In this document: piece after piece, positions 1,153-35,368 of the stretch
Layout: each line of letters begins with the position of its first letter
Numbering within the stretch: position 1 is the first letter of the stretch
Translations under genes and position numbers: made by a program
The notes under the pieces: model-generated
What the model was told of the DNA's origin: nothing
Databases searched by the model: none
The model's input: only the letters and a program-made list of their open reading frames with translations
Origin: a bacterium
GTDB taxonomy: Bacteria > Armatimonadota > JACIXR01
Reading direction: 5' to 3'
DNA: 44,500 bases
Assembly: GCA_014360495.1 (NCBI GenBank)
Contig: JACIXR010000007.1
Coordinates: forward strand, 1-44,500

Positions 1153-3009
1153 TTAAAATCCACCTTGAGATATTTCCAAACCAAATTTTTTATCTCGTTT
1201 GGACCAATAAAGATATATCTCCCTTTCTCCAATGGACTTTGAAAGGATATATTGTAAATCTGAAAAGTCATAGGGACCAAGTTTATAAAAATAAGAACGA
1301 AGCTGAAGACCCCATTGATGAGAGAAAGAGTAAGATAAGTTTCCGTAGCTGAACTTGCTATTGTCTTCCAAACTGTTGTTTATGTAGAAATAACCTGACC
1401 ATTTGCCTCTCCTGAAGAGTAGATTAAGCCCCAAATTCTCGCCTCCCTGACTTCCATACCTCGTAGCATTGAACTTTGAATAGGTAATGCTCAAGTTCCC
1501 CCACCCCTTGAGCTCCCTTCCTAAATAGGCGTTAAATGTATAAAGTCCCTTGTCCTCCTTCCCCCATTGATAACCTCCCTCCAGTGAAAGGTCCAACCTG
1601 TTTTTCCCAATCATAATTGAAGGAGAAAGCCATTGGACAAAGAGCTCCTTTCCCAACCAATCCCACTTATATACCCTCCCTACTATTCCAAGCGAAGACA
1701 TCCCCAATTTCAACGGACGTATCCTAAGTGATATATCCTGCCCTTCTTTCTCGTAAATCCCGTATTTCCTTTGATAGATGTTGTAGATTAAGTTAGCGGA
1801 AGACCATTCTTTCCTTATGGAAACTCTGCTATACCTATCTCCTCTTGCGAGGTAATCAAGATAGAGGTTAGTAAAGAGCTTATCGGGGAAGATGTGCTGA
1901 TGAGACCAGGTAGCTCCCCAATCTCCTCCCTCCCCCTGCTCAAAAACAATTCCTCCCCTTGCATTATTTAGTTCATATTGCTGGTCAAGCGCCAAATTCC
2001 ATCCTTGCCGCCTCGTGTATACATCTATACCACTTGCATTCGCATACCGGAGATGAAGAGCACCTGTATAATTCTCTTTTAGGGCAAAATAAAAGGGAAA
2101 ATCAAGAGCTATACCGCTCGTTCCCCAACTCAACATCTGCTGAGTATAATCACCATAAGTGGAAAACCTTATTAACTGATATGGGAGGGAAAAAACTTTA
2201 CTGCCTCCTATGAAGGTAGAAGTTCCCTTTAGGTAGACCTTCTCCCCGGGAAATATCTCCGCCTCCTTTGCGAGAATCACGACGCGAGAATCGGCTGGGT
2301 CGTAGAAGTCAAAGGCATAGGAAGGAATATATCCTTCAAAAGGTTCCTCCACAAGGTTTATACCTTTTATCTTGACAGCCCTTACTTCTCCTTCTGCGAT
2401 GAGCATAATTCCCTCATTGGAGGTGAAATCCCAAAACAGCCTATCTCCTTCAATCTTCTTATGCCCGTTGCTCACGCATATTTCCCCCAGCGCTTTTAAA
2501 GTAGCTGAAGTAGCATCTACCTGAAAGCTATCGCCCGTGAAGATAAGCCCCTTGTAGTAAACATTTACATTTCCCGTAGCGTCCAAGACTCCTCCATCGG
2601 CGCACCAAGCAAGATAATTTCCCGAGACTTTTACCACTCTTCCCTTTCGCTCATATGTTAGTTCTTTCTCGGAAACGAAGGTAACTTTAGCTTGAACAGT
2701 TGAGCCCAGACAGGAGATGGTGATTGTAGCGGTTCCTTCCTTTGTGCTCGTTATCTCTGCCCTTGCCACACCTCCTTCCGTATATACCCAAGGAGTTATA
2801 GTGCCGAGGGTAGTGGCGAAATCAACTCTCACGCTCTGAGAGACAAGCCCCTTTCCTTCCTCCCTTATCTGGGCTGTAATCACTGCGGTAGAAGTCCCAT
2901 CAGCGGGGACAACCTGTGGGTTCACATCAACTTGAATGGTGTATATCGCTCCTCTCGCAAGGCTTAGAAATAAGATAATAGAGAGGAGAAAAAATTTTCG
3001 TCTTCCCAT
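1153..3009 (-). CDS. LptD/OstA-like outer-membrane protein with N-terminal Big-1-type Ig domain
   Basis: A 618-residue exported protein. Residues 1-20 are a signal peptide. Residues ~22-112 resemble an invasin/Big-1 bacterial Ig domain (PADGTSTAVITAQIREEGKG, later GTATITI). Residues ~125-240 have the repeating OstA/LptA beta-jellyroll pattern (VSGNYLAWCADGGVLDATGN, IEGDRLFWDFTSNEG), which in LptA/LptD binds lipopolysaccharide in transit. The remainder (~280-618) is rich in aromatic beta strands and ends in Phe, consistent with an outer-membrane barrel. LptD inserts LPS in the outer leaflet. Whether this protein does so or handles another glycolipid cannot be read from sequence. Classic LptD lacks a Big-1 domain and is usually longer. 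The ATG sits only nine bases from a possible minus-strand -10, so initiation may be near-leaderless. Confidence 0.65.
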   Translation of the reverse strand: MGRRKFFLLSIILFLSLARGAIYTIQVDVNPQVVPADGTSTAVITAQIREEGKGLVSQSVRVDFATTLGTITPWVYTEGGVARAEITSTKEGTATITISCLGSTVQAKVTFVSEKELTYERKGRVVKVSGNYLAWCADGGVLDATGNVNVYYKGLIFTGDSFQVDATSATLKALGEICVSNGHKKIEGDRLFWDFTSNEGIMLIAEGEVRAVKIKGINLVEEPFEGYIPSYAFDFYDPADSRVVILAKEAEIFPGEKVYLKGTSTFIGGSKVFSLPYQLIRFSTYGDYTQQMLSWGTSGIALDFPFYFALKENYTGALHLRYANASGIDVYTRRQGWNLALDQQYELNNARGGIVFEQGEGGDWGATWSHQHIFPDKLFTNLYLDYLARGDRYSRVSIRKEWSSANLIYNIYQRKYGIYEKEGQDISLRIRPLKLGMSSLGIVGRVYKWDWLGKELFVQWLSPSIMIGKNRLDLSLEGGYQWGKEDKGLYTFNAYLGRELKGWGNLSITYSKFNATRYGSQGGENLGLNLLFRRGKWSGYFYINNSLEDNSKFSYGNLSYSFSHQWGLQLRSYFYKLGPYDFSDLQYILSKSIGEREIYLYWSKRDKKFGLEISQGGF

Positions 3010-10945: not shown

Positions 10946-10962
10946 TTCTCTCTAATCCTCTC

Positions 10963-11925
10963 TTACCTCAAATTGAACATTGTTATTCCTCTAACGAAAC
11001 TGCCGTCGGAGCTCCTCGCTATTACCTCCAAGAGATATACGCCAGCAGGCAACGGCTTCCCTTGGGCATCCTTGCCATCCCATACCACGCTGTTCAACCC
11101 AGCCACGCCTGAGCGTGTCATCTCTTTTATCAACCTCCCATCCACTCCCTTAACGCTCACCTTCACATCCGCACTATCGCTCAGGCTGAAGCTCACATTC
11201 ACTCCTCCCCTCGTCGCCTTCGCCATCAACCCGCTTATCAATAGCGCTGATGCCCGCCTCTCGTATACCACCTTCAGCTCCTTGCGACCATCAGAGCTGA
11301 ATACATAGCGGGAGCTCGTCAGCATGTTGATTCTCTTATCTCCATCTATCAGATACAACGCATAGCCCTTGGGAAGCTGGGAGAGATTTGGCCAGCTCAA
11401 GGTTATCTCACCAGCACCCTCTACCACTACATCCCATTCCGCCCTCTCAGCCTTCTCCCTCACATCCCAAGCCAACCTCTCTCCCTTCCTCAGGAAGTAA
11501 AGCTGAACTCCACTCAAAGCAGGCGGCTCCTCAACCCCAGATAGCAACCCGCTATCTCCCATACCCAGATAGTTGCAGGTATCCTTGCCAGTGGAGCTCT
11601 GTGCAACGAGCTGAACCTTCCAACCCTCGGGCTTCAAATCCCTCGCCTCAACGGACTTCGTTGCGGGCGTGAATACCAACTGCACGCCGTCCTGCATTGC
11701 CTTTATCCAGTAGCCCTTCCAACCCTTAATCGTCCTATTATCACCGCTTAGGGCAGGATGGATGAGGATGTAATCCCCAGTCGTTGTATCGTAGCCCCAG
11801 AGATAACCTCTTACCAATCCTTCCCTATCCGCCTCGCTTAAGCTCAATTGTTGTGTTCCATACATCACCGTTAGAGCGGAGAGGTCAAGGTCGGAAGTGT
11901 AAGGAGAACCTATTATGTTCCAACC
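10963..11925 (-). repeat. Near-identical 963-bp duplication, copy A
   Basis: This segment matches 16159-17121 at a constant offset of 5196 bases with no gaps. By eye I count about six substitutions, two of them in the stop codon/last codon area. It encodes the last ~320 residues of the protease gene, and similarity drops sharply just beyond the GWNIIGSP codons. Confidence 0.95.
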
Positions 11926-14820
11926 CTTTGCGAGGGAGACCGTTGTTTCCCCATCGGGCAGAACGCCAGCGTAAAGATTGAGAGTGGGCGCTGAGCCATC
12001 TTTAGCCTTCATCCAGAAACCCTGTCCTGTATTTAGGACCGAGAGGTCAACATATTTTCCTTGAGCAGGGTCCCACCACTTGAGAGCGAGGTTGCTCAAC
12101 TGGTCCTTCAGGATATCGCTGACTTTGGTATTGGTGAAAAGTAGGGGCAGTGCAACCATATCAATCACGGGGAATTTATTTGTGGTCTTTATGAGGAACG
12201 AGTCGGTTCCTTTGCTTTGACCGGTGGCTTTGTCCTCTGCCTCAATCGTCCAGGTCCCCAGGGTGTCCAAGGGGATTTGTGAAGTGGGCAAGGTGATTGA
12301 GGCGAGACCATTCTCCTCTGTATCCACTTCTATTGAGAAAACCTTCCCCAGCGGATTAGTAATACTTACGGACAATGTTTGGTTCGCCATATATGCGATG
12401 CTTATCTTGAGGGTTGCGCCTCTTTGAGCGATTATATCTAATTCCTCAGGCGAAGCTTGAACTGCTATAACTCCCACGCCTAAACTTCCTTTATCAGAGC
12501 GCACCTCCACATAACCGTCCTCCGCTTCGAAGACGAATGTATAAACGCCGATATCGTTCAACACCACATCTTTCGCTGTGAAGACGATTCCCTGTTTGGG
12601 ATTATCGCCTTCTTGCTCAGGCGTTATAGGTGGTAACTCTTCGCCTTGGGGGTCGGTTATTATCAAGCGAACATTTTGAGGTTGGTCGCCGTCTACATCC
12701 TTGTAAGTCACGGAGAAGGTGAACTTTCCTCCAGCCTGCCCGTAAAGTGGGGAAGCTTGGGGATTGAGCAATTGGGGAGGATTGTTTACAATTGGACCCT
12801 CAACAGGTGTTGTGGAAGTCACGTCTATTCCGTCAGAGGCAGAAAACTTGTAGGAATATTTATAACCTGTAGCCTTATATAGATTGAGGGAATATGTCCA
12901 GAGTTTTCCATCCTTGCTTGTCATAGTGAAGGGAGAACCGGTTATTTCGGAGCCATCTTGAAGGATATGCAATTTAACATATTCTGCGGAATCCACATCT
13001 GGGTCGGAATATTCAACACTAAAGGAGAACTTCTCCCCTGGAGCTCCTAAGGTTGGCTCAACCTTCCCATTGCTTAAGAGAGGAGCAGTATTTACACTCG
13101 GACCCGTAAATTCGCCGACGCTGGGATATCTGTAATCAGTCGTTCCATCGGAAGCTGTATAGTAGAAATCGTATAATCCTCTCTCTAAATAAATCCTCGT
13201 CTTATAGCTCCTTCCGTCTGACGAGGTCATATCGGCCTCGTAGGTCTTTCCTGTGATGGTGTTTATAAGATGAAGCTTTAGGTATGTAAGGGGTTTATCG
13301 GGAATATTATAAAGCAAAGTGAAGGTAAAGAGAGTGGAAGGAGCTCCTTTGCTCGGTGTAAAGTTGGCGCCGCTGAATGCGGGCAGACCAGAGAACGCTT
13401 TGACGCAAACATTTGTATTATAGAAGTATGAAGTTATATCTTCCCAACTCACTCCGTCGCTACTGATAAAGCTCTCACCCGGGTTTGCTGTAGCCTTACT
13501 GCTGTAGCCAGCGACTGGAATCTCAACGGGAATGGGAGCGTCCCAACCCGGAGTATTCAGATAAACAACAACAGAGAATTTCTGTCCCTGAGCGACTTGG
13601 ACAGGAACATCCAAGAGGATGGTATGGTACCCGGGAAGGGGCAGTGTTCCGCTCTTGCTTCCCGCCAAGGTTCCGCTTCTTGGCTGACCGGGAGCTACAT
13701 TGGTGTAGACATAAACTGTATAGCTGGTGTTCACAACAGGAGTATAGAAGCTTACCGCACTGATGGGCTCGTCGCTAACAGCGGTGAAAATATTCGCGAA
13801 CCAAGCTGTTGACCCACCATAGCCTGTGAAAGTTACTACTCCGAGAGGGTCATACTGATATATGTTGGTATAATTCGTCACATCCTCTCCCGCAGCGAAT
13901 ACTGCATTTTCTATTCCTATCGCTGTATCGTAATAAGAAATGTAAAAGTATCCTCCCTCGCCCCAACTTGAACCCCAGCTATTTCTCACTATAAAGGCTC
14001 CGTCGCCAGGTGGTTCTGTTGAGAAATTAGTTCTCGGGTAGTTATCATCCCATCCAACTATGCAGACGGAGTGATTGCCGTATTCCGAGCCACTATAATA
14101 ATAAGCATTTGTTGAAGGATTGAAATAAGCGTCATCGTAATACATTGAAGTATAAACTGCTCCATATCGCATAACAGCGGATTTTATTATGTCATTATCT
14201 AGCGGCCCGGTTCTATCAGGTAATGAGTAGACTTTCTGAATATGTTGGCGAACGGTTAACTGCTGCCAGCTCCCAGGATTTGGATATGGGTCGTCAACTT
14301 CCTCCACTGGTCCAAACCATCCCGCAAGATAAGCAACTGAGGATAGAGCAAATCCTCCATTCCAACCGAAGGGTTCCCCGGGAGCAACAGGGTCATAGTT
14401 ATCTGCTGCCCAATTGGTCAAATTATTTTCCGAGAAATCCCAAACCTTCCCCGTTTCGGTGAGGTCGCAGGATTCAAGAGAACCAAATGTGGCATGTGCC
14501 CAACAAGTCCCATAAACATCCTGGTCCTTTACTGGGGTTAACCTACCTTGTTGACGGAGGTCATAACGTGATGGAAGAGGCTGTCGCGATAAACTGACAA
14601 TCCTTCCTCTATTGATAGCGGAGAAATTAAACGGAGAAGGTAATAGACCCAAAGGATGCCCGCTTTTGGTGAATAGAGGAGGGACAATCCCCTTGCCTAC
14701 ATTCTCACGAAACTCCAAAAACTTTGGATTAAGAGGTGCAAGGAAGGGCTGTGCATATGCTACCCCAACCCAAAGGAGCGATATCCCCAATATCAGTAGA
14801 ATGCCTTTTCTTTTTAGCAT
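10963..14820 (-). CDS. Secreted papain-family (C1A) protease with lectin-like, Ig-like and FlgD-type C-terminal domains
   Basis: A 1285-residue surface or secreted protein. A signal peptide (~1-24) and a short pro-region precede a C1A peptidase domain (~84-300) with all catalytic positions visible: Q100 (oxyanion hole), C106 in GTCWAHA, H250 and N280 in RNSWGSSWG. Residues ~305-475 resemble the lectin-like domain often fused to bacterial C1 peptidases. At least three Ig-like repeats follow (near 490, 600 and 705; pattern FTFSVTYKDVDGD...YVKLHI). Next comes a module with KWW-PAQGKY, GFWMK and GWNIIGSP, and finally a FlgD-like Ig domain ending MFNLR. The last ~320 codons are almost identical in DNA to those of the 16159-21831 gene. 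It is the last gene of the five-gene minus-strand run. The start has GGAGGAGG upstream. Confidence 0.9.
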   Translation of the reverse strand: MLKRKGILLILGISLLWVGVAYAQPFLAPLNPKFLEFRENVGKGIVPPLFTKSGHPLGLLPSPFNFSAINRGRIVSLSRQPLPSRYDLRQQGRLTPVKDQDVYGTCWAHATFGSLESCDLTETGKVWDFSENNLTNWAADNYDPVAPGEPFGWNGGFALSSVAYLAGWFGPVEEVDDPYPNPGSWQQLTVRQHIQKVYSLPDRTGPLDNDIIKSAVMRYGAVYTSMYYDDAYFNPSTNAYYYSGSEYGNHSVCIVGWDDNYPRTNFSTEPPGDGAFIVRNSWGSSWGEGGYFYISYYDTAIGIENAVFAAGEDVTNYTNIYQYDPLGVVTFTGYGGSTAWFANIFTAVSDEPISAVSFYTPVVNTSYTVYVYTNVAPGQPRSGTLAGSKSGTLPLPGYHTILLDVPVQVAQGQKFSVVVYLNTPGWDAPIPVEIPVAGYSSKATANPGESFISSDGVSWEDITSYFYNTNVCVKAFSGLPAFSGANFTPSKGAPSTLFTFTLLYNIPDKPLTYLKLHLINTITGKTYEADMTSSDGRSYKTRIYLERGLYDFYYTASDGTTDYRYPSVGEFTGPSVNTAPLLSNGKVEPTLGAPGEKFSFSVEYSDPDVDSAEYVKLHILQDGSEITGSPFTMTSKDGKLWTYSLNLYKATGYKYSYKFSASDGIDVTSTTPVEGPIVNNPPQLLNPQASPLYGQAGGKFTFSVTYKDVDGDQPQNVRLIITDPQGEELPPITPEQEGDNPKQGIVFTAKDVVLNDIGVYTFVFEAEDGYVEVRSDKGSLGVGVIAVQASPEELDIIAQRGATLKISIAYMANQTLSVSITNPLGKVFSIEVDTEENGLASITLPTSQIPLDTLGTWTIEAEDKATGQSKGTDSFLIKTTNKFPVIDMVALPLLFTNTKVSDILKDQLSNLALKWWDPAQGKYVDLSVLNTGQGFWMKAKDGSAPTLNLYAGVLPDGETTVSLAKGWNIIGSPYTSDLDLSALTVMYGTQQLSLSEADREGLVRGYLWGYDTTTGDYILIHPALSGDNRTIKGWKGYWIKAMQDGVQLVFTPATKSVEARDLKPEGWKVQLVAQSSTGKDTCNYLGMGDSGLLSGVEEPPALSGVQLYFLRKGERLAWDVREKAERAEWDVVVEGAGEITLSWPNLSQLPKGYALYLIDGDKRINMLTSSRYVFSSDGRKELKVVYERRASALLISGLMAKATRGGVNVSFSLSDSADVKVSVKGVDGRLIKEMTRSGVAGLNSVVWDGKDAQGKPLPAGVYLLEVIARSSDGSFVRGITMFNLR

Positions 14821-14841
14821 ATTTTTAGAACCTCCTCCTAC

Positions 14842-14856
14842 GGGTTAATTTAACCC
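14842..14856. promoter_or_regulatory. Short perfect palindrome between two operon genes
   Basis: GGGTTAATTTAACCC is a perfect 7+1+7 inverted repeat in the 52-base gap between the CsgG-like gene and the protease gene, just upstream of the protease ribosome-binding site on the minus strand. It could be an operator or a small RNA hairpin modulating the last gene. There is no further support. Confidence 0.25.
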
Positions 14857-14872
14857 TCATCCTCACGCTTCC

Positions 14873-16147
14873 TTATGGTGGTGTGGGTGCAGGTGCTTCA
14901 GGAGTTGGTTGAATCGGCTTAGAAGCTAATCCTTCTGCCCCTTGAGAAGATAAAGCGGATACCTTATAGTAAACCGTCCCTGCGAGCGGATTAGCGTCTA
15001 ACAATTGCGTTCCCGTGGTGGTTCCGATTAGCTCAAACGGCCCATCCTGGCTAACTCCCCGATATATCCTATAACTACTTGCCCCGACGACCGCCTGCCA
15101 ATTTATCTCCACATAACTCTTCGTCTGGCTCGCTATCTTTATGGCGCTGACACCGCTGGGAACGGGAGGCGCTCCCACTATTATCAATGAACTATATGCC
15201 CGACCAAGCTCTTCTCCTCCCTTGCCTATTGCGATTACACAATAAGCATAAGCGTTCCCTATTCGGACATCCGTATCAGTGTAAGCGGTCTGAGGAGGAT
15301 AAACCTCCCATAAATCCTCATAGGGAAGCGTCTTTACATCCTTTATAACTTGGATGTTCCAAGGCGCTCCCTGAGGCGTATTCTGTAGTGTAGCTCTCAA
15401 TATTTTATATCTTGAAGCTCCAACTGCGGGATTCCAACTTATATCCACTGTCGCCCCATAAGATACCGCATCAACCCTAGGAACATAAGCTTCCGCCTTT
15501 GCTTCCTCCCTCGTTTGACTCCACACTATCCAGCCCAACAATATAGCCCCCAGTAGATAGTACTTGCTTCTTTCCTTTCTCTTTATCTCCGCTTGCTTCT
15601 TGGAAGGTGTAGGAGCACCTACTAACGCAGATACGAGAGAGCGAGCCGCCTCATCCAATGCTTCCTTTATCGCCGCTTCCCTTGATACTCCGTTGACCTT
15701 TCCCCTGCTCTTACCCGTCACAACCGCCTCCTTAACCTGCTTCCCCTCCGCAACACTCAGCATCCTCGCCCGCTCCATTACGCTTATTACGCCCTCTTCC
15801 TCCTTCAACTCCTCAACGCTTCCTATAAATACATAATTCGCCCCCAGTAGCCTTCCTATCTCCATCGCCCTATCATCATCGCCCGGCGCAAGTGTCACCT
15901 CCTCCTCCGTCAATGAGCCATCGGATATCAGCCTCTGGACCATTGGAGAGCGAAGATGATAGGGTATTACATCTCCCCTCCCAGTTGCGAAGAGGGCGAT
16001 GTTTAAGGCGCTGCGGGCTTCTTCAGAGAGATTCTGCTCGGTCTTATCCTCAAAGGGGAAAACTAGGTAGGTATCCTTCCCCCAAAGGGGCAGGACACCT
16101 AAAATCACGACTAGCAACAGGACAGAATAGCTCGCTACTTTCTTCAT
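14873..16147 (-). CDS. Exported CsgG-like/fibronectin type III hybrid protein
   Basis: A 424-residue protein. The signal peptide (~1-23) has no lipobox cysteine. Residues ~25-175 resemble the CsgG/TolB-N-like alpha/beta fold: YLVFPFEDKT, then AMEIGRLLGANYVFIGSVEE, the usual 'level of the named family' signature, and an Ala-rich helix near 160. A Lys/Arg-rich linker and a short hydrophobic segment (YYLLGAILLGWIVW, ~197-210) follow. Two Fn3-like domains come next (~225-330, 335-415; VDISWNPAVGASRYKILRA, VEINWQAVVGASSYRIYRG), then a Pro-rich tail. Canonical CsgG forms the curli secretion pore as a lipoprotein; this protein lacks that lipid anchor. The gene lies 11 bases after the giant surface protein and 52 bases before the protease. 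It shares its architecture with the 24377-26170 product. The function is unknown. Confidence 0.7.
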   Translation of the reverse strand: MKKVASYSVLLLVVILGVLPLWGKDTYLVFPFEDKTEQNLSEEARSALNIALFATGRGDVIPYHLRSPMVQRLISDGSLTEEEVTLAPGDDDRAMEIGRLLGANYVFIGSVEELKEEEGVISVMERARMLSVAEGKQVKEAVVTGKSRGKVNGVSREAAIKEALDEAARSLVSALVGAPTPSKKQAEIKRKERSKYYLLGAILLGWIVWSQTREEAKAEAYVPRVDAVSYGATVDISWNPAVGASRYKILRATLQNTPQGAPWNIQVIKDVKTLPYEDLWEVYPPQTAYTDTDVRIGNAYAYCVIAIGKGGEELGRAYSSLIIVGAPPVPSGVSAIKIASQTKSYVEINWQAVVGASSYRIYRGVSQDGPFELIGTTTGTQLLDANPLAGTVYYKVSALSSQGAEGLASKPIQPTPEAPAPTPP

Positions 16148-16158
16148 TTTGGCTCACC

Positions 16159-17121
16159 TCACCTTAAATTGAACATTGTTATTCCTCTAACGAAACTGCC
16201 GTCGGAGCTCCTCGCTATTACCTCCAAGAGATATACGCCAGCAGGCAACGGCTTCCCTTGGGCATCCTTGCCATCCCATACCACGCTGTTCAACCCAGCC
16301 ACGCCTGAGCGTGTCATCTCTTTTATCAACCTCCCATCCACTCCCTTAACGCTCACCTTCACATCCGCACTATCGCTCAGGCTGAAGCTCACATTCACTC
16401 CTCCCCTCGTTGCCTTCGCCATCAACCCGCTTATCAATAGCGCTGATGCCCGCCTCTCGTATACCACCTTCAGCTCCTTGCGACCATCAGAGCTGAATAC
16501 ATAGCGGGAGCTCGTCAGCATGTTGATTCTCTTATCTCCATCTATCAGATACAACGCATAGCCCTTGGGAAGCTGGGAGAGATTTGGCCAGCTCAAGGTT
16601 ATCTCACCAGCACCCTCTACCACTACATCCCATTCCGCCCTCTCAGCCTTCTCCCTCACATCCCAAGCCAACCTCTCTCCCTTCCTCAGGAAGTAAAGCT
16701 GAACTCCACTCAAAGCAGGCGGCTCCTCAACCCCAGATAGCAACCCGCTATCTCCCATACCCAGATAGTTGCAGGTATCCTTGCCAGTGGAGCTCTGTGC
16801 AACGAGCTGAACCTTCCAGCCCTCGGGCTTCAAATCCCTCGCCTCAACGGACTTCCTTGCGGGCGTGAATACCAACTGCACGCCGTCCTGCATTGCCTTT
16901 ATCCAGTAGCCCTTCCAACCCTTAATCGTTCTATTATCACCGCTTAGGGCAGGATGGATGAGGATGTAATCCCCAGTCGTTGTATCGTAGCCCCAGAGAT
17001 AACCTCTTACCAATCCTTCCCTATCCGCCTCGCTTAAGCTCAATTGTTGTGTTCCATACATCACCGTTAGAGCGGAGAGGTCAAGGTCGGAAGTGTAAGG
17101 AGAACCTATTATGTTCCAACC
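16159..17121 (-). repeat. Near-identical 963-bp duplication, copy B
   Basis: Partner of 10963-11925 at a fixed 5196-base offset. One of the few differences changes a Thr codon to Arg in the TPA(T/R)KSVE segment; others are silent or in the stop region. The sharp edge at 17121 falls inside the coding sequence. Confidence 0.95.
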
Positions 17122-20100
17122 TTTCTGAATGGTATAAGTGAAAGATGGTTCGGTGTATTTAGTTCCTTGATAGAGCTCAACAGCGGTTAGCCCTGCTACC
17201 TTCATCCAGAAGCCCTGCCCCGTGTTGAGGGTTGTGAGGTCTACATATTTCCCTTGGGCAGGATTCCACCACTTAAGTGTGAGATTACTCAGCTGGTTAC
17301 CAAATATATCCTTTACGGCTGTATCCTTATATTCGAAGGGAAGAGCAACCATGTCAACGGCGGGGAACTGGCGGGTTATCTTGACGAGGAATGTAGCCTG
17401 TAGCGTCTCCAACACATTGCCTTTGCTGTCCTTCGTATTCACTTCAACGCTATATTGACCCAAAGTATCGGGAGATACCTGCTCGCTATAGCTTCCCGTT
17501 GTATCCGCTTGGAAATCTTTATCCGCTATCTTCACACCCTCGGGATTGGTCACCGTGATGTGCCCAGATTGTCCTGGGCGGGTTGAAATCTGAATGGTTA
17601 CCACTCCTTTAGGGTCAGCGCCTAGGTCAAGCTCTTTAGGAGTAATTGTCATCAAGGACCCTATTCTGAATTGAGGATAATCCTCCTCTTTAAGTGGAGC
17701 TTTCACATAATTATTGAATTCACGACCATCATCAGCTTCCACAAAGAACCTGTATTCTCCGGTCTCTGTGAAAACAGGGTCAACTTTGTATTCAACGCCG
17801 CTCTTATAATCTGTGGCGGCGGGGTCGACCTGGGACATCGTCTCCGTGCGATAAGCCGCCCAACTGCCATCCGGCTGTTTCTTCTCAATGGTAGCTTTGA
17901 CATATTTAGGCGCATCGTTGTTTGCATCTGAGTAAGTGGCGAAGAATGTCATAGCTATATTGGGCACGCCAACGCTTGAGCTCACAGCTATATCGGATAG
18001 TGCAGGCTTATCGTTGATATAAGGCAGTTGAACCTCGCCGTTGGCTATCAGCTTATATTCCTTGCCCGTGGGAAGCGTTATATTATAATTTGCCCCCGAG
18101 GTAGGATATCTAACGGAGTCTGTGCCATCTGACGCTTCAAGATGGAAGCTATGTAAACCTGCTCCAAGGTCGCTGCCCTTTATCTCCGCCTTATAGAGCT
18201 TACCATCGTCGGTTCTATCGTCATCCGGGTCAACAGGCTGCATATCTATAGCCTTCTTCAAATCTATGACCAGCTTTACATATGAGGGCATTTGGTTGTT
18301 GCCATCCACGAACTGAACTGTATATGTGAAGGTATCGTTTAGACCACCTATTGAAAGTCCACTACTGGGGTCAACGGGCGAGATGTATTCTGTGACCCTA
18401 CTATCGTCTTGCGATTCGTCGGGATTTTGTTTTGGAGACAGCAACTTCGGAGGTATATTAGGTATTATACGGGGTCCGAGCAGGAAAGGAAAACCTCTCT
18501 TAGCCGGCTCAGCATCCTTGGGAAGGTATAGCTCTCCACCATTATAGGTAATGTGGAAGGTATATCTGTAGCTATTTGAATAGCTCGTTGGGTCATTGGG
18601 GTCAAAGGCAAGGAGAGGATAGTTCCTTACAGCAAACTGCCCTCCACCTTCGTCTTGCATAGATAGAATTGCCACCGCCTCCCAATCGGTATTTACCTTT
18701 CGTTCAATTAACAACTCCACGCTTGGATTCTGCCCAAGCAAAGCGGGGTCAACCTTATCCAGATGGATTACCCAGCTATTAGCCACCGTTCCATTAGCGG
18801 GGTCAACCGCTCCAAATGTATGCTCAATTGCTTCCACGGGTCTGTCATCGGTTTTGCCGTCGTTTGTGGTAAATTCTGCAGCGTAATATGTCTGAGGTCC
18901 GTAGACCAACTTGGCGGTATACCAGAAGACAGTTCCATCTCTATAAAGTGTATCGGATGGGTCTTCCTGGGTCATCTTTATTGTATCAAATACCGTCCAA
19001 TTTGCTCCAGTGTCGTCCGTTTTCATTATGAACATCTTAATCCAAGCGGGAGCATCATCATCGCCATCGTAGTAAGTCACTCTCCAGGTAACTGGTATTT
19101 GAGGAGAAGGCACTCCACCTGTAGCACTTGTTAAATTGGGGTCAGCCAGGTAGGGAACCCTGTTTGTGGTTATCTCGGGTCCAGAAATATCGTAGGAGGC
19201 GGGATATCTTATCGTCGTTCCCGTTTCGGGATAATAGGGCTCGCCCCAGTCATCAGTGAACTCAAAGTGATAGCTATAAGAGCAGCGAGGGTCAAAGGGC
19301 TCCTGTGTCTCAGGGTTGAAGTATTTGGATTGGTATTGGAATGTAGCTCCCGCCGTCCAATCATTCGCTGACCCTAACCAGCTCACCCTTGCCATCTGAC
19401 ATCTACGAGTCTCCAATATCTGCCCGGTGCTTTTGTCTATCTTGTTTATCACCAAGAGAGCGAATCTCGGAGGGTCGTTGTCAGCATCCTTGTAGCTTAC
19501 CGTCCAAGTGAAGGTCGTCCCCGAGGGTCCAGATGTTGGACTAAGGGATTCTCCCCAGAGAACGGGGTCGTTGTTTACCCATGGACCGGGCAGGAAATCA
19601 CTTCCTACAGGATTATCCCAAGGGTCAGGGTTTACATCTAAATCTGGAGGATTAGGCGGTATGTCCCTCACCCAGTAGAGGGCTTTGTTGGGGTTAGAGG
19701 TTACAGGGTCGGAAGGGTCATCCTTAGGTCTCGCGGGGAACTTCGCCGTTCTCGCATAATCATTGGCATCAAAGAAGGTGGCATATTTGCCCGGTGGAAG
19801 CGTTGTTTCAAAGTAATACCACTCGCCGTTTCTGTAATCGCCATCATTCGGTGCTCCTTCATAGCGGAGCATCCAATATTCCATCCACATCCCTTTTTGA
19901 TAATCATATATTAAAACCCTCACTCTGTATGGGTCTTTGTTCTTTGGCTGAGTATATTTTACCCAGAAGCGAATCTTGGAAGAAGAAGGAACACGGCGCC
20001 ACTTATAGGGAGCTGGGCGAGGAATGGGGGAATATTCCACATATGAATTGCCATTGTTCACGCTGAGCAGAAGTTTGCCATCGGGGGCGTCGGCGGCTAT

Positions 20101-21831
20101 CTTCTCGGGAACCCAAACCTCCAATGGATTAGTCGTTATTTGAACGAGGGGTGAATCAGTGATTGGTTCCAGAGGGTCATGGTCTTTATATTTCTCGCTT
20201 CCATATTTCCAGCCAGTGTATCCATAAGTGAATCCGCCCTGTGAAAGAATTGGATAATTCCAAAGGCGGAAGGGTTTCCAACCGGGAACTTGCTCCGGAA
20301 CCTGAGCATTGGTGAATGCTGGAAAGAAGGGATAGAGTATGTAATTACAGGAGGTGGACGATTCAGGATAAAAACGAGTGTAGTCGTATCTATCATTTCC
20401 AACAAAGTCTACAGGAGTTGATGAACCCCAGGCCTGCCCTGTGTCGGGGTCAACCTGATGCCACCAGTAATAAGTTATATCGCCATCCCTGTCCATATTA
20501 TAAGGTCTTAAATCAGCGGAGGCTTCAAAATAGTAGTTTATCTCCGACTGGCTGAAGGTGAAATCCCATCCGGCGCCTTGCCCCGCACCAAATCCTGTGT
20601 CACTTCTCGTTGTAGGATAGCCAGGATTGGAATGACCGTTCGGCTCCCTATAACCGGTCTTCCCCAAATTGCCGAAGGCAACATAGTGATTGCTGAATGT
20701 TATTCCATCGCCTGACATCCCTCTTAAAATCCTCTGGGGATAAACTATGTAAGATGTATTGCCTACTGTATTAACAACATACTGGGACCCACCGTTATAG
20801 AGAACAGGCCACAAGTTCCACTCCCTTCCCTGCCCAATATAGTAGCCCAAATATTCCGTTGGGCGAACAGTGTATTTGTAAATAACGCCGTTCATATAAT
20901 CCTGCCCTGTCAGCTGGTCTATATCCTTGTTGGGGCTCTCCACTACCATAAAGTGGGGAATCCAGACGCCGGTTGCCTGCCCGGTTACAGGGTCGGAATC
21001 ATCGGACCTTGCGGATATCTCGCTGTTAGACCTGTCCTTTATCCAAACTACCGGCGTGCCAAGCCTGTTGATGGAAAGAGTTTGTATTTTGGCATTGTAA
21101 TCTCCTCCCTCATCTCGCCAGTTATCCTGCCCAGATGAATATCCACCCCCGTACCAGTTCGCTGCATCAGTGTTCACGAAGAAGCGGGGAGGCAATCCAT
21201 CCAGATGGATGTATTTTACTCTAAATGTATATGTGCAGGAAGAAGAGCCAGCATCGGGATGCCCGGGGTCAAGCGGGTCTATGGTTAGTCCTTGTCCATA
21301 TGCTCCTCCCTCAGGGAACAGCAACACCCGATTAACGCCCGTCACGACTATTTGGCGGTGTTCAGATTCCACGATGTCGGGAGGAGTGGTTGAAGTAGGA
21401 GAAGCCGAGGAGGCGATTACATACCACTCAAAGCTTTGAGGACCACCTGTTAGGGAAGCCCCAAAAGGAAGGGTGTTATGGGGGTCAGTGGGGTCATAGG
21501 AAACCCATGAGGGCAACCATGGATACGCAGTTGCACACCAAACCCCTTGCTCCCAGTTCCCACTAATCAACCACATTGGATACCTTCGTCCATTAACAAT
21601 CAATGTTGGCCACTGCCAGAAAATCTCGCCACTACCTGTCTGAAGCTCTATGAGGAAAGTAAAGCAAGTGTTAGCAGTGCCATCGGCAGCAGCATCGGCA
21701 GGCACATAAGGTGGTTCAAGCCATCCCCTCCTGCTTGGACGAACCTCGTAATTGCCAGTGTAACTTACATTAGCTAAAATCAGTCCTGCTCCGAATATCG
21801 CTAATAAGCCGATTAATATTGCCTTTTTCAT
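16159..21831 (-). CDS. Giant modular surface protein with Ig-like repeats and FlgD-type C-terminal domain
   Basis: An 1890-residue exported protein, signal peptide ~1-20. Residues ~20-700 are aromatic, Tyr/Trp/Gly-rich beta sequence of no family I recognise. Ig-like repeats recur near 770, 915, 1170 and 1300 with the pattern WTVSYKDADNDPPRF, WRVTYYDGDDDAPAWIK, FFATYSDANNDAPKYVK. The Asp-rich loops suggest calcium binding. Residues ~1490-1570 carry the VALPFEY/KWWNPAQGKY/GFWMK module. Residues ~1571-1890, including the terminal FlgD-like Ig domain ending MFNLR, are nearly identical to those of the protease at 10963-14820. No catalytic motif is seen. It probably forms or decorates the cell surface. 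It starts 16 bases after the 21848-24325 gene and has a GGGAGG site. Confidence 0.85.
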   Translation of the reverse strand: MKKAILIGLLAIFGAGLILANVSYTGNYEVRPSRRGWLEPPYVPADAAADGTANTCFTFLIELQTGSGEIFWQWPTLIVNGRRYPMWLISGNWEQGVWCATAYPWLPSWVSYDPTDPHNTLPFGASLTGGPQSFEWYVIASSASPTSTTPPDIVESEHRQIVVTGVNRVLLFPEGGAYGQGLTIDPLDPGHPDAGSSSCTYTFRVKYIHLDGLPPRFFVNTDAANWYGGGYSSGQDNWRDEGGDYNAKIQTLSINRLGTPVVWIKDRSNSEISARSDDSDPVTGQATGVWIPHFMVVESPNKDIDQLTGQDYMNGVIYKYTVRPTEYLGYYIGQGREWNLWPVLYNGGSQYVVNTVGNTSYIVYPQRILRGMSGDGITFSNHYVAFGNLGKTGYREPNGHSNPGYPTTRSDTGFGAGQGAGWDFTFSQSEINYYFEASADLRPYNMDRDGDITYYWWHQVDPDTGQAWGSSTPVDFVGNDRYDYTRFYPESSTSCNYILYPFFPAFTNAQVPEQVPGWKPFRLWNYPILSQGGFTYGYTGWKYGSEKYKDHDPLEPITDSPLVQITTNPLEVWVPEKIAADAPDGKLLLSVNNGNSYVEYSPIPRPAPYKWRRVPSSSKIRFWVKYTQPKNKDPYRVRVLIYDYQKGMWMEYWMLRYEGAPNDGDYRNGEWYYFETTLPPGKYATFFDANDYARTAKFPARPKDDPSDPVTSNPNKALYWVRDIPPNPPDLDVNPDPWDNPVGSDFLPGPWVNNDPVLWGESLSPTSGPSGTTFTWTVSYKDADNDPPRFALLVINKIDKSTGQILETRRCQMARVSWLGSANDWTAGATFQYQSKYFNPETQEPFDPRCSYSYHFEFTDDWGEPYYPETGTTIRYPASYDISGPEITTNRVPYLADPNLTSATGGVPSPQIPVTWRVTYYDGDDDAPAWIKMFIMKTDDTGANWTVFDTIKMTQEDPSDTLYRDGTVFWYTAKLVYGPQTYYAAEFTTNDGKTDDRPVEAIEHTFGAVDPANGTVANSWVIHLDKVDPALLGQNPSVELLIERKVNTDWEAVAILSMQDEGGGQFAVRNYPLLAFDPNDPTSYSNSYRYTFHITYNGGELYLPKDAEPAKRGFPFLLGPRIIPNIPPKLLSPKQNPDESQDDSRVTEYISPVDPSSGLSIGGLNDTFTYTVQFVDGNNQMPSYVKLVIDLKKAIDMQPVDPDDDRTDDGKLYKAEIKGSDLGAGLHSFHLEASDGTDSVRYPTSGANYNITLPTGKEYKLIANGEVQLPYINDKPALSDIAVSSSVGVPNIAMTFFATYSDANNDAPKYVKATIEKKQPDGSWAAYRTETMSQVDPAATDYKSGVEYKVDPVFTETGEYRFFVEADDGREFNNYVKAPLKEEDYPQFRIGSLMTITPKELDLGADPKGVVTIQISTRPGQSGHITVTNPEGVKIADKDFQADTTGSYSEQVSPDTLGQYSVEVNTKDSKGNVLETLQATFLVKITRQFPAVDMVALPFEYKDTAVKDIFGNQLSNLTLKWWNPAQGKYVDLTTLNTGQGFWMKVAGLTAVELYQGTKYTEPSFTYTIQKGWNIIGSPYTSDLDLSALTVMYGTQQLSLSEADREGLVRGYLWGYDTTTGDYILIHPALSGDNRTIKGWKGYWIKAMQDGVQLVFTPARKSVEARDLKPEGWKVQLVAQSSTGKDTCNYLGMGDSGLLSGVEEPPALSGVQLYFLRKGERLAWDVREKAERAEWDVVVEGAGEITLSWPNLSQLPKGYALYLIDGDKRINMLTSSRYVFSSDGRKELKVVYERRASALLISGLMAKATRGGVNVSFSLSDSADVKVSVKGVDGRLIKEMTRSGVAGLNSVVWDGKDAQGKPLPAGVYLLEVIARSSDGSFVRGITMFNLR

Positions 21832-21847
21832 CCAGCTATCGCCTCCC

Positions 21848-24325
21848 TCATCTTAAATTAAACATCTGAATCGCTCGGGAGAATTCACCATCAGTTCCCC
21901 TCGCCAGAACCTCAATTATGTAAATGCCCGCAGGCAAGGGGTTGCCCCTCTCGTCCTTCCCATCCCAATAGAGGCTATTCGCCCCCTCTTTCAAGCTCCT
22001 CTGCCCCAACACTTTAACCACCTTCCCTGATGCCATTGCTACCCTCGCATTCACCACCGCCTCCGCTGAGAGGCTGAATGCTATGCTCACTCCACCCCTC
22101 TGGGGAACCACCCTCAATCCTGTTATCATCGCCTTTCTATTCCCCTCCACCGCCTCTATCTTCAATATCCTCTTCCCCTCCACTTTATATGAAGAAGTAG
22201 TGCCCATATATGTTCTATTGCCGTTTTCATCAATTATATACAATCTCAATCCCTTGGGGAGCTTCTCCATTCCCTTCCAGATTATCTCCCCGCCCTGCGG
22301 AGCATTTGCCTCTATCGTCCATACCTTCTGGGCGGTTGAAGAGCGGACATCACAAGCCAAGCTCTCTCCATCCCTAACTATATTGAGATATGTGCCAACT
22401 GGTGAGGGCGGCTTCTCAATCTTCAACTCCTTGCCAACGCCGATGTAATTCGCTTCATCCTTTACATTTCCGCTTAAGAGGACTAATTGGATTAGCCAAT
22501 CAGCGCTTATATTGCGGGCAGTAGCAGTTATATCACCTACAGAAGCGCTTATTGAGCGGGCGGGGATGGATGGGAAGATTAGAGTGCAGGGAACAGCTAC
22601 CTTTATAAAATACCCCTCCCAGGGCAGTAGAGAATAAGAGCTGGAAACACTCCACTCATAGGAGCTATCTTCGGGCTTCCAATGGAAGATATAGCTTCTC
22701 AGCCAGCCTGAATTTATCGCGTCCAGCCATCCCTTAACCTGACCACCGTAGTTAACTCTTACGCTTCCCCAATCAATAGGATATACGAAGGGATTGCCGA
22801 TTTGATTCCATCCCGCATCAAGGCTTATGGAATATGGTGTTGTGCCCGATAACGGTGTGGGTGGCTGAGGTTGAGATTTGGAAACATCCACCTTAGTGGG
22901 AGTACCAACCTTCAGCCAGTAAGCCATTCCCAGTTTTATTGTCGCAAGCTGGGAATCCGTGGGATAGAAAAGATATCTATTGTCCTTTGGACTCCATCTT
23001 GCGACCTTATTCGTGATATCGCCGAGGTCGCTCAGCACTTTCTCCATGCGAGAATCCGAGAACAAATAGGGAGCGGAGAACATCATGACCCCCGAGGGAA
23101 GACGCCTCGTGAATCCAACGGGAATATCAATATACCTCGTTAAGGCTCTTCTCGGAAGTCCAGGGATATCTACAGATACTTTCAAAGGGAGTCTCCCGGA
23201 CACATCAGCAGCGATATTTATTTGCCAGACAAGCTCCGCTTGAGGGTCAGGGGCTGTGGCTGACGCGCGAGGTGGGATATCTGGGAAGGTTTTCACTTGA
23301 GTTTCACCACTAGCAAGGCTCAACCCTTCAGGTAATTCAATACTCGCTTGAGCTCCGCTTATTGTGGAGTCAACCGGATTATATAAATCGCAGAGAAGGG
23401 TGACGGAAGTAGTGCCTGCTTGCAAGGTAGCAGGAGCATAGATTGCAACGCCAGCTGGGTAAGTATAATCATTAGTGGACCAGTCAACACCTAAATAGAA
23501 AACGAATTTACGGCTTTCACCTGGCTGAATCCAACGCGGAAACCACTTGAGAACCAACCCAGCGCTTGTTGTTATTCTCGCTCCCGTTACTTGGTAATCC
23601 CATGGGTCATCTGCTCCAGAAATGGACTCGGCATTGGCTATTATCACATTTGTTGGCTTTGTTGCATCCCATTCCCCAATCGTCGCCCTTAAAATCGCTG
23701 TGGGATTGGTGAAATCATCAGAAGCTCGGACATATGAAGGCACATCCAATTGGCTGATAAGCCTTTCCCTATCTATAATCCCCAAACTTGGAACAAGAAA
23801 AAGCGTCTGTGTGGCACCGCCCACCGGCACCTCTAAATTGAGAATCTGCATAAATCCGATATTATGCGCCGTTATATCCCCATTTTTTACCGTATATTCA
23901 ACCCTTATCGCGTCCCTCACAACTGTGACTTTCTGCTTGACATTTATATTAATGGGGCGAGTATTGTCATTTCCGATTTCCGCATCTATCAGCCACTCAC
24001 CCTCTATGTCGTTAGGGCTTATGACTTCGGGTGGGCTAACAGCTGTACCATCATCACCCACCTTGTATGAAACGCCGCTTGTCTCTTGGTCTGATGAAAG
24101 CAATTCCTCTACCCTCACAATAGCCAATGTATTATCGCCATTTAGGATTTGTATTGCATCATCTGTCGTCCTATTGGGGTCTCCACCAACGGTCTCAAGC
24201 GTTATATGATGGTCATCCCCTACGGTAACCGAGACATAGCTATTAGCCAATGTTCCCTCACCCCAGGCAAGCCCCCACCCTATCATCAATGCTGCTCCCA
24301 GTGTCAGCGCTATTTTAAATTTCAT
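21848..24325 (-). CDS. Surface protein with FlgD-type C-terminal domain
   Basis: An 825-residue exported protein, signal peptide ~1-22 (MKFKIALTLGAALMIGWGLAWG). Residues ~25-300 are a beta-rich domain of no family I recognise. Residues ~300-400 resemble a CARDB/DUF11-like stalk repeat (YAPATLQAGTTSVTLLCDLY). Residues ~405-600 hold a diverged copy of the KW-P-KY / GMAYWLK / GWNQIGNP / GYFIK module found in the two larger surface proteins. The last ~85 residues form a FlgD-like Ig domain (NSLYWDGKDERGNPLPAGIY) ending MFNLR. It is the most diverged of the three CTD proteins, so the family predates the recent duplication. It lies 51 bases after the CsgG-like gene and 16 bases before the giant protein. 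The function is unknown, presumably cell-surface. Confidence 0.8.
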   Translation of the reverse strand: MKFKIALTLGAALMIGWGLAWGEGTLANSYVSVTVGDDHHITLETVGGDPNRTTDDAIQILNGDNTLAIVRVEELLSSDQETSGVSYKVGDDGTAVSPPEVISPNDIEGEWLIDAEIGNDNTRPININVKQKVTVVRDAIRVEYTVKNGDITAHNIGFMQILNLEVPVGGATQTLFLVPSLGIIDRERLISQLDVPSYVRASDDFTNPTAILRATIGEWDATKPTNVIIANAESISGADDPWDYQVTGARITTSAGLVLKWFPRWIQPGESRKFVFYLGVDWSTNDYTYPAGVAIYAPATLQAGTTSVTLLCDLYNPVDSTISGAQASIELPEGLSLASGETQVKTFPDIPPRASATAPDPQAELVWQINIAADVSGRLPLKVSVDIPGLPRRALTRYIDIPVGFTRRLPSGVMMFSAPYLFSDSRMEKVLSDLGDITNKVARWSPKDNRYLFYPTDSQLATIKLGMAYWLKVGTPTKVDVSKSQPQPPTPLSGTTPYSISLDAGWNQIGNPFVYPIDWGSVRVNYGGQVKGWLDAINSGWLRSYIFHWKPEDSSYEWSVSSSYSLLPWEGYFIKVAVPCTLIFPSIPARSISASVGDITATARNISADWLIQLVLLSGNVKDEANYIGVGKELKIEKPPSPVGTYLNIVRDGESLACDVRSSTAQKVWTIEANAPQGGEIIWKGMEKLPKGLRLYIIDENGNRTYMGTTSSYKVEGKRILKIEAVEGNRKAMITGLRVVPQRGGVSIAFSLSAEAVVNARVAMASGKVVKVLGQRSLKEGANSLYWDGKDERGNPLPAGIYIIEVLARGTDGEFSRAIQMFNLR

Positions 24326-24376
24326 AAACCTCTACCTCCCATCTTCTTCTCTCCTTTCTCGCTTTCCTCATGTTAA

Positions 24377-26170
24377 TTAAGGAGGGGAAGGAGGACCCGG
24401 CTCGATGTTTATCGTGAACCAATATCCCTTGCGGAAAACATAACCTCCTGGAGGTTTCTGGGTATCGTCTTTATTTATCGCTCCTACCCTCCAGTATAGC
24501 ACCTTCGCATTTTTAAACCTTGATAGGTCAAGGGTCAACCCCGTCTCTGGCATCAGGTCTCCTGCATTGCCTATAAGATAAAGCGGCTTGCTGCGCAATG
24601 TCTTGCTACTGTCGGAGGGGAAGCTTGGGTCTGTGGAAACCTCCACAACATACTCATTGGCACCGTCCACAGCAAGCCATTGGAATGTAACGCTATTAAG
24701 CTGGTCAACGAGGAGGGTAGTTCCATTAGCCGGTGAGGCAGGAGTTGGAGGGACGATTGGTGTATAACGCCCAAGGGGAATAGGGTCCATATAATGATAG
24801 ACTACGCGCGCCTCGCCATCGGGAGGAGCTGGAGGGCAATAAGCGTTTATCCCAATCACATAGTAATAATAGGAACGCCCAGGGATGAAGGGGGTCGTCG
24901 TGATGTCCTCTGTGTCCAAATCAGCGAGGTCATCGGAAGGGAGATATCTCGTGATTGTAGCGGGGAGCTGGAGCGAATCCTCGCAAGTGCTGGGAGGTGT
25001 CGTTCCGCCATAGAGGATGCCATTCTCAAAATAAAGGTTATTACGCCAGCTATAAATCAAGTATACATCGCTGTCAGCGGGAATAGCCCCAGGGGAAGAT
25101 GGCATAGAGGGGTTGGGAGTTCTGTAGACCATCACCGCGGCGATGTTTGTGGGATTGGGTATCTTGCGATAATCCCAGGATAGGTGGATTATCGGACTTC
25201 CTCCGGATTCATCCGCATAACAAGTACTTGGACGAGGACCAGCGGTAGCGCTTGAGCTCTTCTGCATCAATTTATAAATGCCAAAGGCTAAAAGCAAAGC
25301 GGGAAGCGTCTTCTGCAAACTCGTCTTCGCCTTCGTCTTTATCTCCTGCTCCAAGGGAGCCTTGCCAATGGGAGGAAGCTCGTAAACAATCCGCACCTTG
25401 TCTCCTCCCTGAATACCCCGAGGGGCTTCCAATATCGTCGCCGTTGAGTCCGTTAAGGTTACCTCCTTCACCTTTATCCTTCCGACTTTCTCCCCTCCAC
25501 GCAGAACCACCATCTCCATTCCCTCCTTAATTCCCTGTCGGGAGCCAGCATTAAGGAGAACCTCACTCCCCATCGTTGTGAGGATAGTGAATTCGGGAAC
25601 ACCTCTAACGGCAAAGGAAACGAACTGTTGGGCAATCTGGTAAGCAGCTTTATTTAGAGCTTCATCTACGAGAATATCAACATCTCCTGTATAATCGTAT
25701 TTTGGCGAGCTCTTACCAGTCGCTACCGCTCCGGTTATCGGCTCCTCGGTGGAGATATCAAGCATCTGGCAGGCAACCTGAACAGCCGCCTGAGTGGCGC
25801 CATTGCTGCGGGAAATAGCCACCTGAATAACCGTCCCCGTGATTACGCCGTCCAATCCCAAAGCGCGCCCAAGCCTCACCATATCCACCTTATCAAGGGG
25901 ATAGGAGAGCCCCTCAGCCTCCACTTCCCTCTCCAAATCCGCACGGGAAAGAATGGTGAAGTAATCCCCCGCGACGGTTGTCAAAGACATAGCTACAGCG
26001 TCGGCGGCACGCCTACCCACCATCTTCCCTTCGTACTTGCTCAAATTGTTGAAATCCAATATCGCCACCTCTAATATCCTTTTCTTCGCCTGCCCCTGAA
26101 GAGATGAAGTGCCCACCAACAAAGCCAAGCCAACAAACAACGCCAACAGCCAGGACTGTCTATGCCCCAT
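24377..26170 (-). CDS. Exported CsgG-domain protein with Fn3-like C-terminus
   Basis: About 597 residues from the ATG at 26170, which has GGAGGG eight bases upstream and begins a signal peptide (MGHRQSWLLALFVGLALLVG). An upstream start at 26227 is possible but would bury the signal peptide. Residues ~30-190 are a CsgG domain (VAILDFNN, FTILSRADLEREVEAEG, LGRALGLDGVITGTV). Residues ~195-275 resemble the SH3-like C-terminal domain of FlgT-type proteins (NAGSRQGIKEGMEMVVLRGG). A hydrophobic segment (LPALLLAFGIYKL) is followed by Fn3-like domains and a Pro-rich end. There is no lipobox Cys. It heads the surface-protein run, 50 bases after coaE. CsgG relatives form secretion pores or periplasmic assembly factors; here a role in exporting or anchoring its neighbours is inference. 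Confidence 0.75.
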   Translation of the reverse strand: MGHRQSWLLALFVGLALLVGTSSLQGQAKKRILEVAILDFNNLSKYEGKMVGRRAADAVAMSLTTVAGDYFTILSRADLEREVEAEGLSYPLDKVDMVRLGRALGLDGVITGTVIQVAISRSNGATQAAVQVACQMLDISTEEPITGAVATGKSSPKYDYTGDVDILVDEALNKAAYQIAQQFVSFAVRGVPEFTILTTMGSEVLLNAGSRQGIKEGMEMVVLRGGEKVGRIKVKEVTLTDSTATILEAPRGIQGGDKVRIVYELPPIGKAPLEQEIKTKAKTSLQKTLPALLLAFGIYKLMQKSSSATAGPRPSTCYADESGGSPIIHLSWDYRKIPNPTNIAAVMVYRTPNPSMPSSPGAIPADSDVYLIYSWRNNLYFENGILYGGTTPPSTCEDSLQLPATITRYLPSDDLADLDTEDITTTPFIPGRSYYYYVIGINAYCPPAPPDGEARVVYHYMDPIPLGRYTPIVPPTPASPANGTTLLVDQLNSVTFQWLAVDGANEYVVEVSTDPSFPSDSSKTLRSKPLYLIGNAGDLMPETGLTLDLSRFKNAKVLYWRVGAINKDDTQKPPGGYVFRKGYWFTINIEPGPPSPP

Positions 26171-33040: not shown

Positions 33041-33121
33041 CTCCTCATAAGCTTATTAATCCTTGTCTTCTTATACACTCTACCTAAAAAGATCGCATTT
33101 GAATTTGTTTTTGCCAAAATT

Positions 33122-33139
33122 GGTTTTTGGTATTTTTGG
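33122..33139 (+). repeat. 18-bp direct repeat, upstream copy (candidate operator)
   Basis: GGTTTTTGGTATTTTTGG, identical to 33184-33201 and 62 bases from it start to start. It ends eight bases before the -35 box at 33148. Confidence 0.6.
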
Positions 33140-33147
33140 GAAAAATA

Positions 33148-33176
33148 TTGACGACAATGTAGACCCTGCTTATAAT
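33148..33176 (+). promoter_or_regulatory. Sigma-70-like promoter of the regulator/radical SAM operon
   Basis: TTGACG (33148-33153), exactly 17 bases, TATAAT (33171-33176): one of the best promoters in the window. Transcription should begin near 33183, about 27 bases before the regulator ATG at 33210. Confidence 0.75.
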
Positions 33177-33183
33177 TATAATA

Positions 33184-33201
33184 GGTTTTTGGTATTTTTG
33201 G
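33184..33201 (+). repeat. 18-bp direct repeat, downstream copy (candidate operator)
   Basis: Exact second copy of the 33122-33139 sequence, placed right at the predicted transcription start. With the first copy it brackets the promoter, a position suited to repression by a bound protein. Confidence 0.6.
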
Positions 33202-33209
33202 TGATTGAT

Positions 33210-33851: not shown

Positions 33852-33854
33852 AGA

Positions 33855-35348: not shown

Positions 35349-35368
35349 AAAGAAAGGAGGAATTGAAG

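Follow-up and report, generated by a model that had tools for sequence, protein, structure and literature searches.

A phylum-core envelope gene cluster of Armatimonadota with likeness to type IX protein display

Introduction

Several bacterial envelope systems are built from parts related to those described here. In the type IX secretion system (T9SS), cargo proteins carry a C-terminal domain (CTD) with an Ig-like fold; secretion depends on the extreme C-terminus of this domain, and its motif E contacts the outer-membrane protein PorV (PMC10202324, PMC11285876). The T9SS has been described as confined to Bacteroidota (PMC10202324). FlgT, from the flagellar H-ring, and PelC, a lipoprotein from the ring of the Pel exporter, form rings on the periplasmic side of the outer membrane. 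Their fold is shared with the periplasmic domain of the curli channel CsgG, within a superfamily that also includes LpoB and GNA1162.

Here, we analyze a window of 44,500 nucleotides from an Armatimonadota genome (contig JACIXR010000007.1, positions 1 to 44,500). The initial annotation of this window, made from the sequence alone, singled out an operon for large exported proteins and two CsgG-like proteins and proposed a dedicated pathway for surface export or assembly. In outline, this is still the best reading; its suggestion of a curli-type pore does not hold, and the extent that it gave to the system was incomplete. In the literature on secretion and the envelope in Armatimonadota, we found no account of the cluster or of such an outer-membrane route.

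Results

Organization of the operon and its surroundings

The coordinates bear out a five-gene operon on the minus strand at 10963-26170, with gaps of 52, 11, 16, and 51 bases (Table 1). The CsgG1 start at 26170 is an internal ATG, and an alternative TTG start for the open reading frame lies at 26227. The 825-aa protein is the orthologue of an ~900-aa tailed protein in other families, and the repeats of the 1285-aa protease are homologous to the “big” protein. The operon is not the full extent of the system: two genes for outer-membrane barrels, one an LptD paralogue and one PorV-like, lie outside it. The LptD-paralogue gene is ~8 kb away, with four plus-strand genes between it and the operon; in most other families it adjoins csgG2. 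The PorV-like gene follows the LptD-paralogue gene.

Two further groups of genes were noted in the window. Between the barrel and the operon, two plus-strand genes at 5992-10906 have a called overlap of 41 bases; one encodes a CBM_4_9 protein and the other a glycosyl-hydrolase-like protein. At 33063-36763, a gene for an HTH regulator is followed by two adjoining radical SAM/SPASM genes.

Table 1. Features of the cluster in the window, with predicted domains.
Feature	Position (strand)	Description
CsgG1	24377..26170 (-)	Signal peptide; CsgG/FlgT-fold domain, ~residues 31-185; FlgT_C-like domain, ~190-265; 12-16-aa hydrophobic segment, ~287-301; C-terminal Fn3/Ig-like domains; phylum-core gene
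825-aa tailed exported protein	21848..24325 (-)	C-terminal module leading into FlgD-type Ig; MFNLR end
1890-aa tailed exported repeat protein	16159..21831 (-)	MFNLR end; homologue of the ~2000-aa “big” protein elsewhere
CsgG2	14873..16147 (-)	Signal peptide; LpoB/PelC/CsgG-superfamily domain; hydrophobic segment; two Fn3-like domains
1285-aa tailed exported papain-family (C1) protease	10963..14820 (-)	Lectin_like domain; MFNLR end
FlgD-Ig / T9SS-CTD-like tail, 825-aa protein	21848..22126 (-)	
FlgD-Ig / T9SS-CTD-like tail, 1890-aa protein	16159..16434 (-)	
FlgD-Ig / T9SS-CTD-like tail, 1285-aa protein	10963..11238 (-)	
LptD-paralogue outer-membrane barrel	1153..3009 (-)	Invasin-D3-type Ig domain at N-terminus
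PorV/PorQ-family-like outer-membrane barrel	219..1076 (-)	NF033709 E=4.5e-19, under curated cut-off; PDB PorV 8e-4

Distribution and gene order across the phylum

The closest relatives of the source genome are metagenome-assembled genomes (MAGs) at ~81% identity, followed by a Fimbriimonadia genome at ~33%; Fimbriimonadia are part of Armatimonadota. CsgG1 is encoded in 234 of the 251 genomes of the phylum (176 of 179 good ones), and the barrel in 99 of 101 (75 of 76 good ones). The two genes lie at most 25 kb apart in 30 of the 32 genomes in which one contig carries both, a count that omits 25 further genomes whose fragmented assemblies place them on different contigs. The exceptions are separated by 69 kb and 852 kb. 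Thus, the cluster is phylum-core in Armatimonadota, and the operon of the source genome is its local form. A tblastn search of CsgG1 against plasmids gave no match.

We surveyed gene order in 40 neighborhoods, three of which repeat L008-L010, leaving 37 independent loci. The recurring order is an ~1800-aa tailed protein, CsgG1, an ~1000-aa tailed S8 subtilase, an ~900-aa tailed protein, sometimes an ~2000-aa tailed protein, CsgG2, and the barrel. Rather than occurring mostly without tailed neighbors, CsgG1 is accompanied by FlgD-tailed proteins at 25 of these 37 diverse loci (hand count), in line with the initial proposal. In the source genome, the N-terminal sequence of a 1685-aa tailed protein encoded on another contig (C6) suggests that this is the ~1800-aa protein in a displaced position. 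The protease slot, which in most other families holds an S8 subtilase, is filled by a papain-type (C1) enzyme in the source genus; the C-terminal modules are homologous, and 10963-14820 (C1) and L051:7837-10806 (S8) form a pair for comparison.

C-terminal tails of the large proteins

Three proteins of the operon end in MFNLR and have a FlgD-like Ig domain at the extreme C-terminus, as initially annotated; they score 42, 40.3, and 38.4 bits against the Pfam FlgD_ig cut-off of 27. The common ending is present in all three but does not amount to three independent identities, since two of the tails are recent copies. Specifically, the genes starting at 10963 and 16159 have a 3' block in common (10962-12104 and 16158-17297; 93.4% identity over 1151 columns), and their final 300 nt are 99% identical. 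Judged by this identity, the block is a recent segmental duplication or gene conversion. The third tailed gene (21848-24325) has no DNA block matching the other two. Elsewhere in the genome, two further tailed proteins end in MFILR (C4) and MVNLR (C6). One more FlgD_ig match, the sixth, lies on C9 and is weak, scoring under the cut-off and sitting away from the C-terminus.

Across the phylum, the large tailed proteins share a C-terminal module of a few hundred residues that ends in the FlgD-type Ig domain. The last residue is Arg in 63 of 69 tails versus 33 of 259 (13%) other proteins of the same loci, a comparison of related sequences whose p-value overstates their independence. In an alignment of 45 tails, the final Arg is near-invariant. 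The tail profile matches FlgD at 1e-11; its match to the T9SS CTD of PorU is weaker (8e-4). Searched singly at E<=0.1, 43 of the 45 tails match PorU models, 33 match PorZ, and 27 match Por_Secre_tail. Against the T9SS type A CTD model TIGR04183 (cut-off 23), two window tails score 18.5 and 15.9, and one is unlisted.

FlgD_ig is found in 224 of the 251 genomes, a survey in which family counts may take in FlgD itself. Several families without it retain CsgG1 and the barrel, so the core would have a function independent of tails. At tail-less loci, homologues of the S8 subtilase and of the ~900-aa and ~2000-aa proteins are retained, minus the tail module. By this pattern of presence and loss, the tails are separable and not part of the core of the cluster. 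At L055, L056, L060, and L063, all large cluster proteins are without the FlgD-type tail, and the gene order is kept.

CsgG-like proteins

Both CsgG-like proteins have the annotated plan of a signal peptide, a CsgG-like domain, a hydrophobic segment, and Fn3 domains. The name “CsgG-like” is justified at the level of the superfamily; in the window, both proteins are under the Pfam CsgG cut-off (CsgG1, E=0.018), and the best structural match is FlgT. Among CsgG1 homologues, 16 of 37 match Pfam LpoB (best 3e-10), 14 match CsgG (best 5e-9), and nine match FlgT_C; the family also matches Pfam TolB_N, as well as TsaP and LpoB in the PDB. The Fimbriimonadia orthologue scores 30 bits against the Pfam CsgG cut-off of 20.8.

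The AF2 model of CsgG1, which has a pLDDT of ~75 in the first domain and 58 overall and is of low confidence outside the first domain, matches FlgT best (3w1e; 1.4e-11), followed by CsgG, GNA1162, and PelC. The predicted structure therefore retains the CsgG/FlgT/PelC/LpoB fold, as the annotation of a CsgG-like domain had supposed. The modeled domain has ~155 residues and also matches domains of PelC/GNA1162 size, in a model whose quality is too low to exclude pore-type beta-hairpins. CsgG2 is more divergent, and its family matches PelC, XCC0632, and LpoB weakly. CsgG1 and CsgG2 thus look like ring proteins of the FlgT/PelC type rather than CsgG pores.

In agreement with the annotation, a lipobox Cys is absent from the window proteins (and present in only 2 of 38 CsgG1 homologues), and a scan of window ORFs revealed no curlin family. 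Together with the missed Pfam CsgG cut-off and FlgT as the best match to the model, this led us to reject a canonical curli system.

A hydrophobic segment with a median length of 16 residues directly follows the domain in all 38 CsgG1 homologues, and K/R residues are richer on its N-terminal side in 37 of the 38. The signal peptide and this placement of K/R argue, by the positive-inside rule, against an inner-membrane helix, and a length of ~16 residues suits the thinner outer membrane. We infer that the segment probably crosses or inserts into the outer membrane. It is also present in most CsgG2 proteins. Fimbriimonadia CsgG2 stops at the segment, without Fn3 domains, and these domains would therefore be optional.

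The sole Pfam CsgG match of the source genome is a 306-aa protein with a FlgT-like C-terminus, encoded far from the window (L001:1210-2130; C2:141213). Some CsgG2 homologues are fused to long invasin-type Ig arrays (L066:7344-11801, 1485 aa; L075:1-5802, at least 1934 aa).

Outer-membrane barrels

In a profile of 15 barrel members (A5), all 15 have an invasin-D3 Ig domain joined to an LptD-like region. The profile matches LptD (7omm) at 1.6e-8, over the jellyroll/OstA-like region and the start of the barrel. A structure prediction for the barrel from two sequences reached a pLDDT of 37 and gave no usable model. The window barrel alone has no Pfam LptD match, and the absence of any Pfam LptD hit led us to suspect that it might be the only LptD of the genome. 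This was rejected when a separate LptD-like protein of 707 aa was found at C1:229037; its family matches LptD (8h1r) at 1.7e-12. The genome also encodes LptF/G, LptA, and LptC, giving a complete-looking Lpt set. With a second LptD-like protein present, the window barrel is at most an LptD paralogue. The PorV-like protein scores 69 bits against NF033709, whose cut-off is 90.

Proteins with a SprA motif

No SprA was found above the TIGR04189 cut-off in any of 101 phylum genomes. The SprA-like matches consist of one ~90-aa motif within barrel-like proteins of 850-1300 aa, whose profile gave no SprA structure match; none of the matches is full-length. These proteins were rejected as true SprA because their profile retrieves no SprA structure. 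GldL was above the TIGR03513 cut-off in none of 61 genomes, with one sub-threshold match, in a search whose control set was without a positive control. With SprA and GldL not found at cut-off, a canonical T9SS was also rejected. In some respects the system would operate as T9SS display does, but it is not a T9SS, as neither of these two defining features was found at cut-off.

The SprA motif is found in 63 of 86 tail-bearing genomes versus 0 of 15 tail-less genomes (p=5e-8; family level, p=0.002). In the set, eight loci have a SprA-motif gene next to a tailed gene, and the one in the source genome (912 aa; C4, L085:8637-11375) overlaps a tailed gene. This co-occurrence and adjacency suggest that the SprA-motif protein may be a partner of the tail. 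A second SprA-motif family is encoded on another contig of the genome (C7, L086:5161-8385), beside a zinc-finger anti-sigma-like gene. Both families, with proteins of ~900-1200 aa, are widespread in the phylum, and the first is without a PDB match.

Discussion

We propose, with a probability of about one half, that the operon is the local copy of a phylum-core Armatimonadota cluster for outer-membrane assembly and display, which resembles the T9SS without being one. In the mechanism that we envisage, the large proteins would be exported by Sec, after which the tail would act like a type IX CTD, as a folded signal for sorting or anchoring. Its readers at the outer membrane would be barrel proteins, namely the PorV-like barrel and probably also the SprA-motif protein encoded on C4. 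CsgG1 and CsgG2 would form periplasmic rings or collars under the outer membrane, in the manner of PelC with PelB and of FlgT with the flagellar rings, and the short hydrophobic segment would hold them in place. The large proteins would make up a surface layer, with one of them, a protease, as its processing enzyme. A more specific version, which we consider unlikely as a whole, is that the LptD paralogue with its Ig domain is the protein translocon of an export machine characteristic of the phylum. FlgT/CsgG-fold rings, spanning the outer membrane with a short helix, would feed it, the FlgD-Ig-tailed giants would be displayed, and the SprA-motif protein would be a second, separable module.

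Other explanations for the cluster were considered. The core of CsgG1, CsgG2, and the LptD-paralogue barrel might export or insert a glycolipid or polysaccharide to which the large proteins bind, so that linkage would reflect a common surface layer and not a protein translocon. The barrel is indeed related to LptD, the CsgG-fold proteins are related to PelC, which forms the ring in a polysaccharide exporter (PMC12141448), a complete-looking Lpt set exists besides the paralogue, and the core is retained without tails. However, in most families the cluster lies beside genes for large exported proteins, the window operon contains no recognized glycan-synthesis gene, and the window has no LptA/LptC/LptB set dedicated to the paralogue. 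We regard this explanation as rather unlikely. Less probable still is a divergent type IX system, in which the tails would be type A CTDs, the PorV-like protein a shuttle, and the SprA-motif protein a reduced SprA translocon. The lack of SprA (0/101) and GldL (0/61) above cut-off weighs against it, as do the shortness of the motif (~90 aa), its profile without a SprA structure, and the presence of CsgG1 and the barrel, which have no place in the T9SS, even though the tails are CTD-like, a PorV-like protein is encoded, and SprA-motif genes co-occur with tails and adjoin them.

A role at the base of a flagellum or type IV pilus, which would account for the FlgD-like and FlgT-like domains, is very improbable. 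FlgD is the best match of the tail and FlgT that of CsgG1, which also matches TsaP; yet the scanned window ORFs include no recognized gene for flagella or pili, almost all genomes of the phylum encode CsgG1, and the FlgD-type Ig domain forms only the last ~90 residues of proteases and Ig-repeat proteins of 800-2000 aa. That unrelated envelope genes lie together by chance is scarcely credible: the same order recurs in distant families and the 30/32 linkage contradicts chance, although the assemblies are MAGs, gene order is variable, and csgG1 and the barrel are far apart in a few genomes (69 kb, 852 kb).

If a phylum-core cluster for assembly and display is the right reading, its implications extend beyond this genome. 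Almost all members of a whole phylum share CsgG1 and the barrel as part of their envelope gene set. The occurrence of CTD-like tails and a PorV-like barrel without SprA or GldL at cut-off would, if true, mean that sorting by FlgD-Ig/CTD domains is broader than the T9SS. Likewise, the proposed function for the LptD paralogue would take LptD-type barrels beyond lipopolysaccharide. Named Armatimonadota have been cultured, and the system is therefore open to testing.

Comparison with known systems

With the T9SS, the cluster shares an Ig-like C-terminal tail with a conserved and basic extreme C-terminus, very large exported cargo that includes cysteine or serine proteases, and a PorV-like barrel nearby. 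It differs in that SprA and GldL are not found at the family cut-offs, with CsgG/FlgT-fold proteins and an LptD-paralogue barrel in their place, and in that FlgD, not the T9SS CTD model, is the closer match to its tails. CsgG1 and CsgG2 have the core alpha/beta fold of the periplasmic domain of CsgG. Unlike the curli channel, there is no lipobox, an FlgT_C-like extension and a hydrophobic segment follow the domain, the C-terminus consists of Fn3/Ig domains, and no curlin was recognized in the window.

The best structural matches are to FlgT and PelC, although no flagellar or Pel genes are present in the window, the hydrophobic segment and Fn3 domains are extra, and CsgG1, unlike PelC, is not a lipoprotein. 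By profile, the barrel resembles LptD in its jellyroll/OstA-like region and the start of its barrel; it differs from LptD in its N-terminal invasin-type Ig domain, its shorter length, its failure to match Pfam LptD, and the presence of a separate LptD in the genome. Thus, the parts of the cluster resemble those of several known machines and belong to none of them, and together they appear to form a machine for the surface display of very large proteins.
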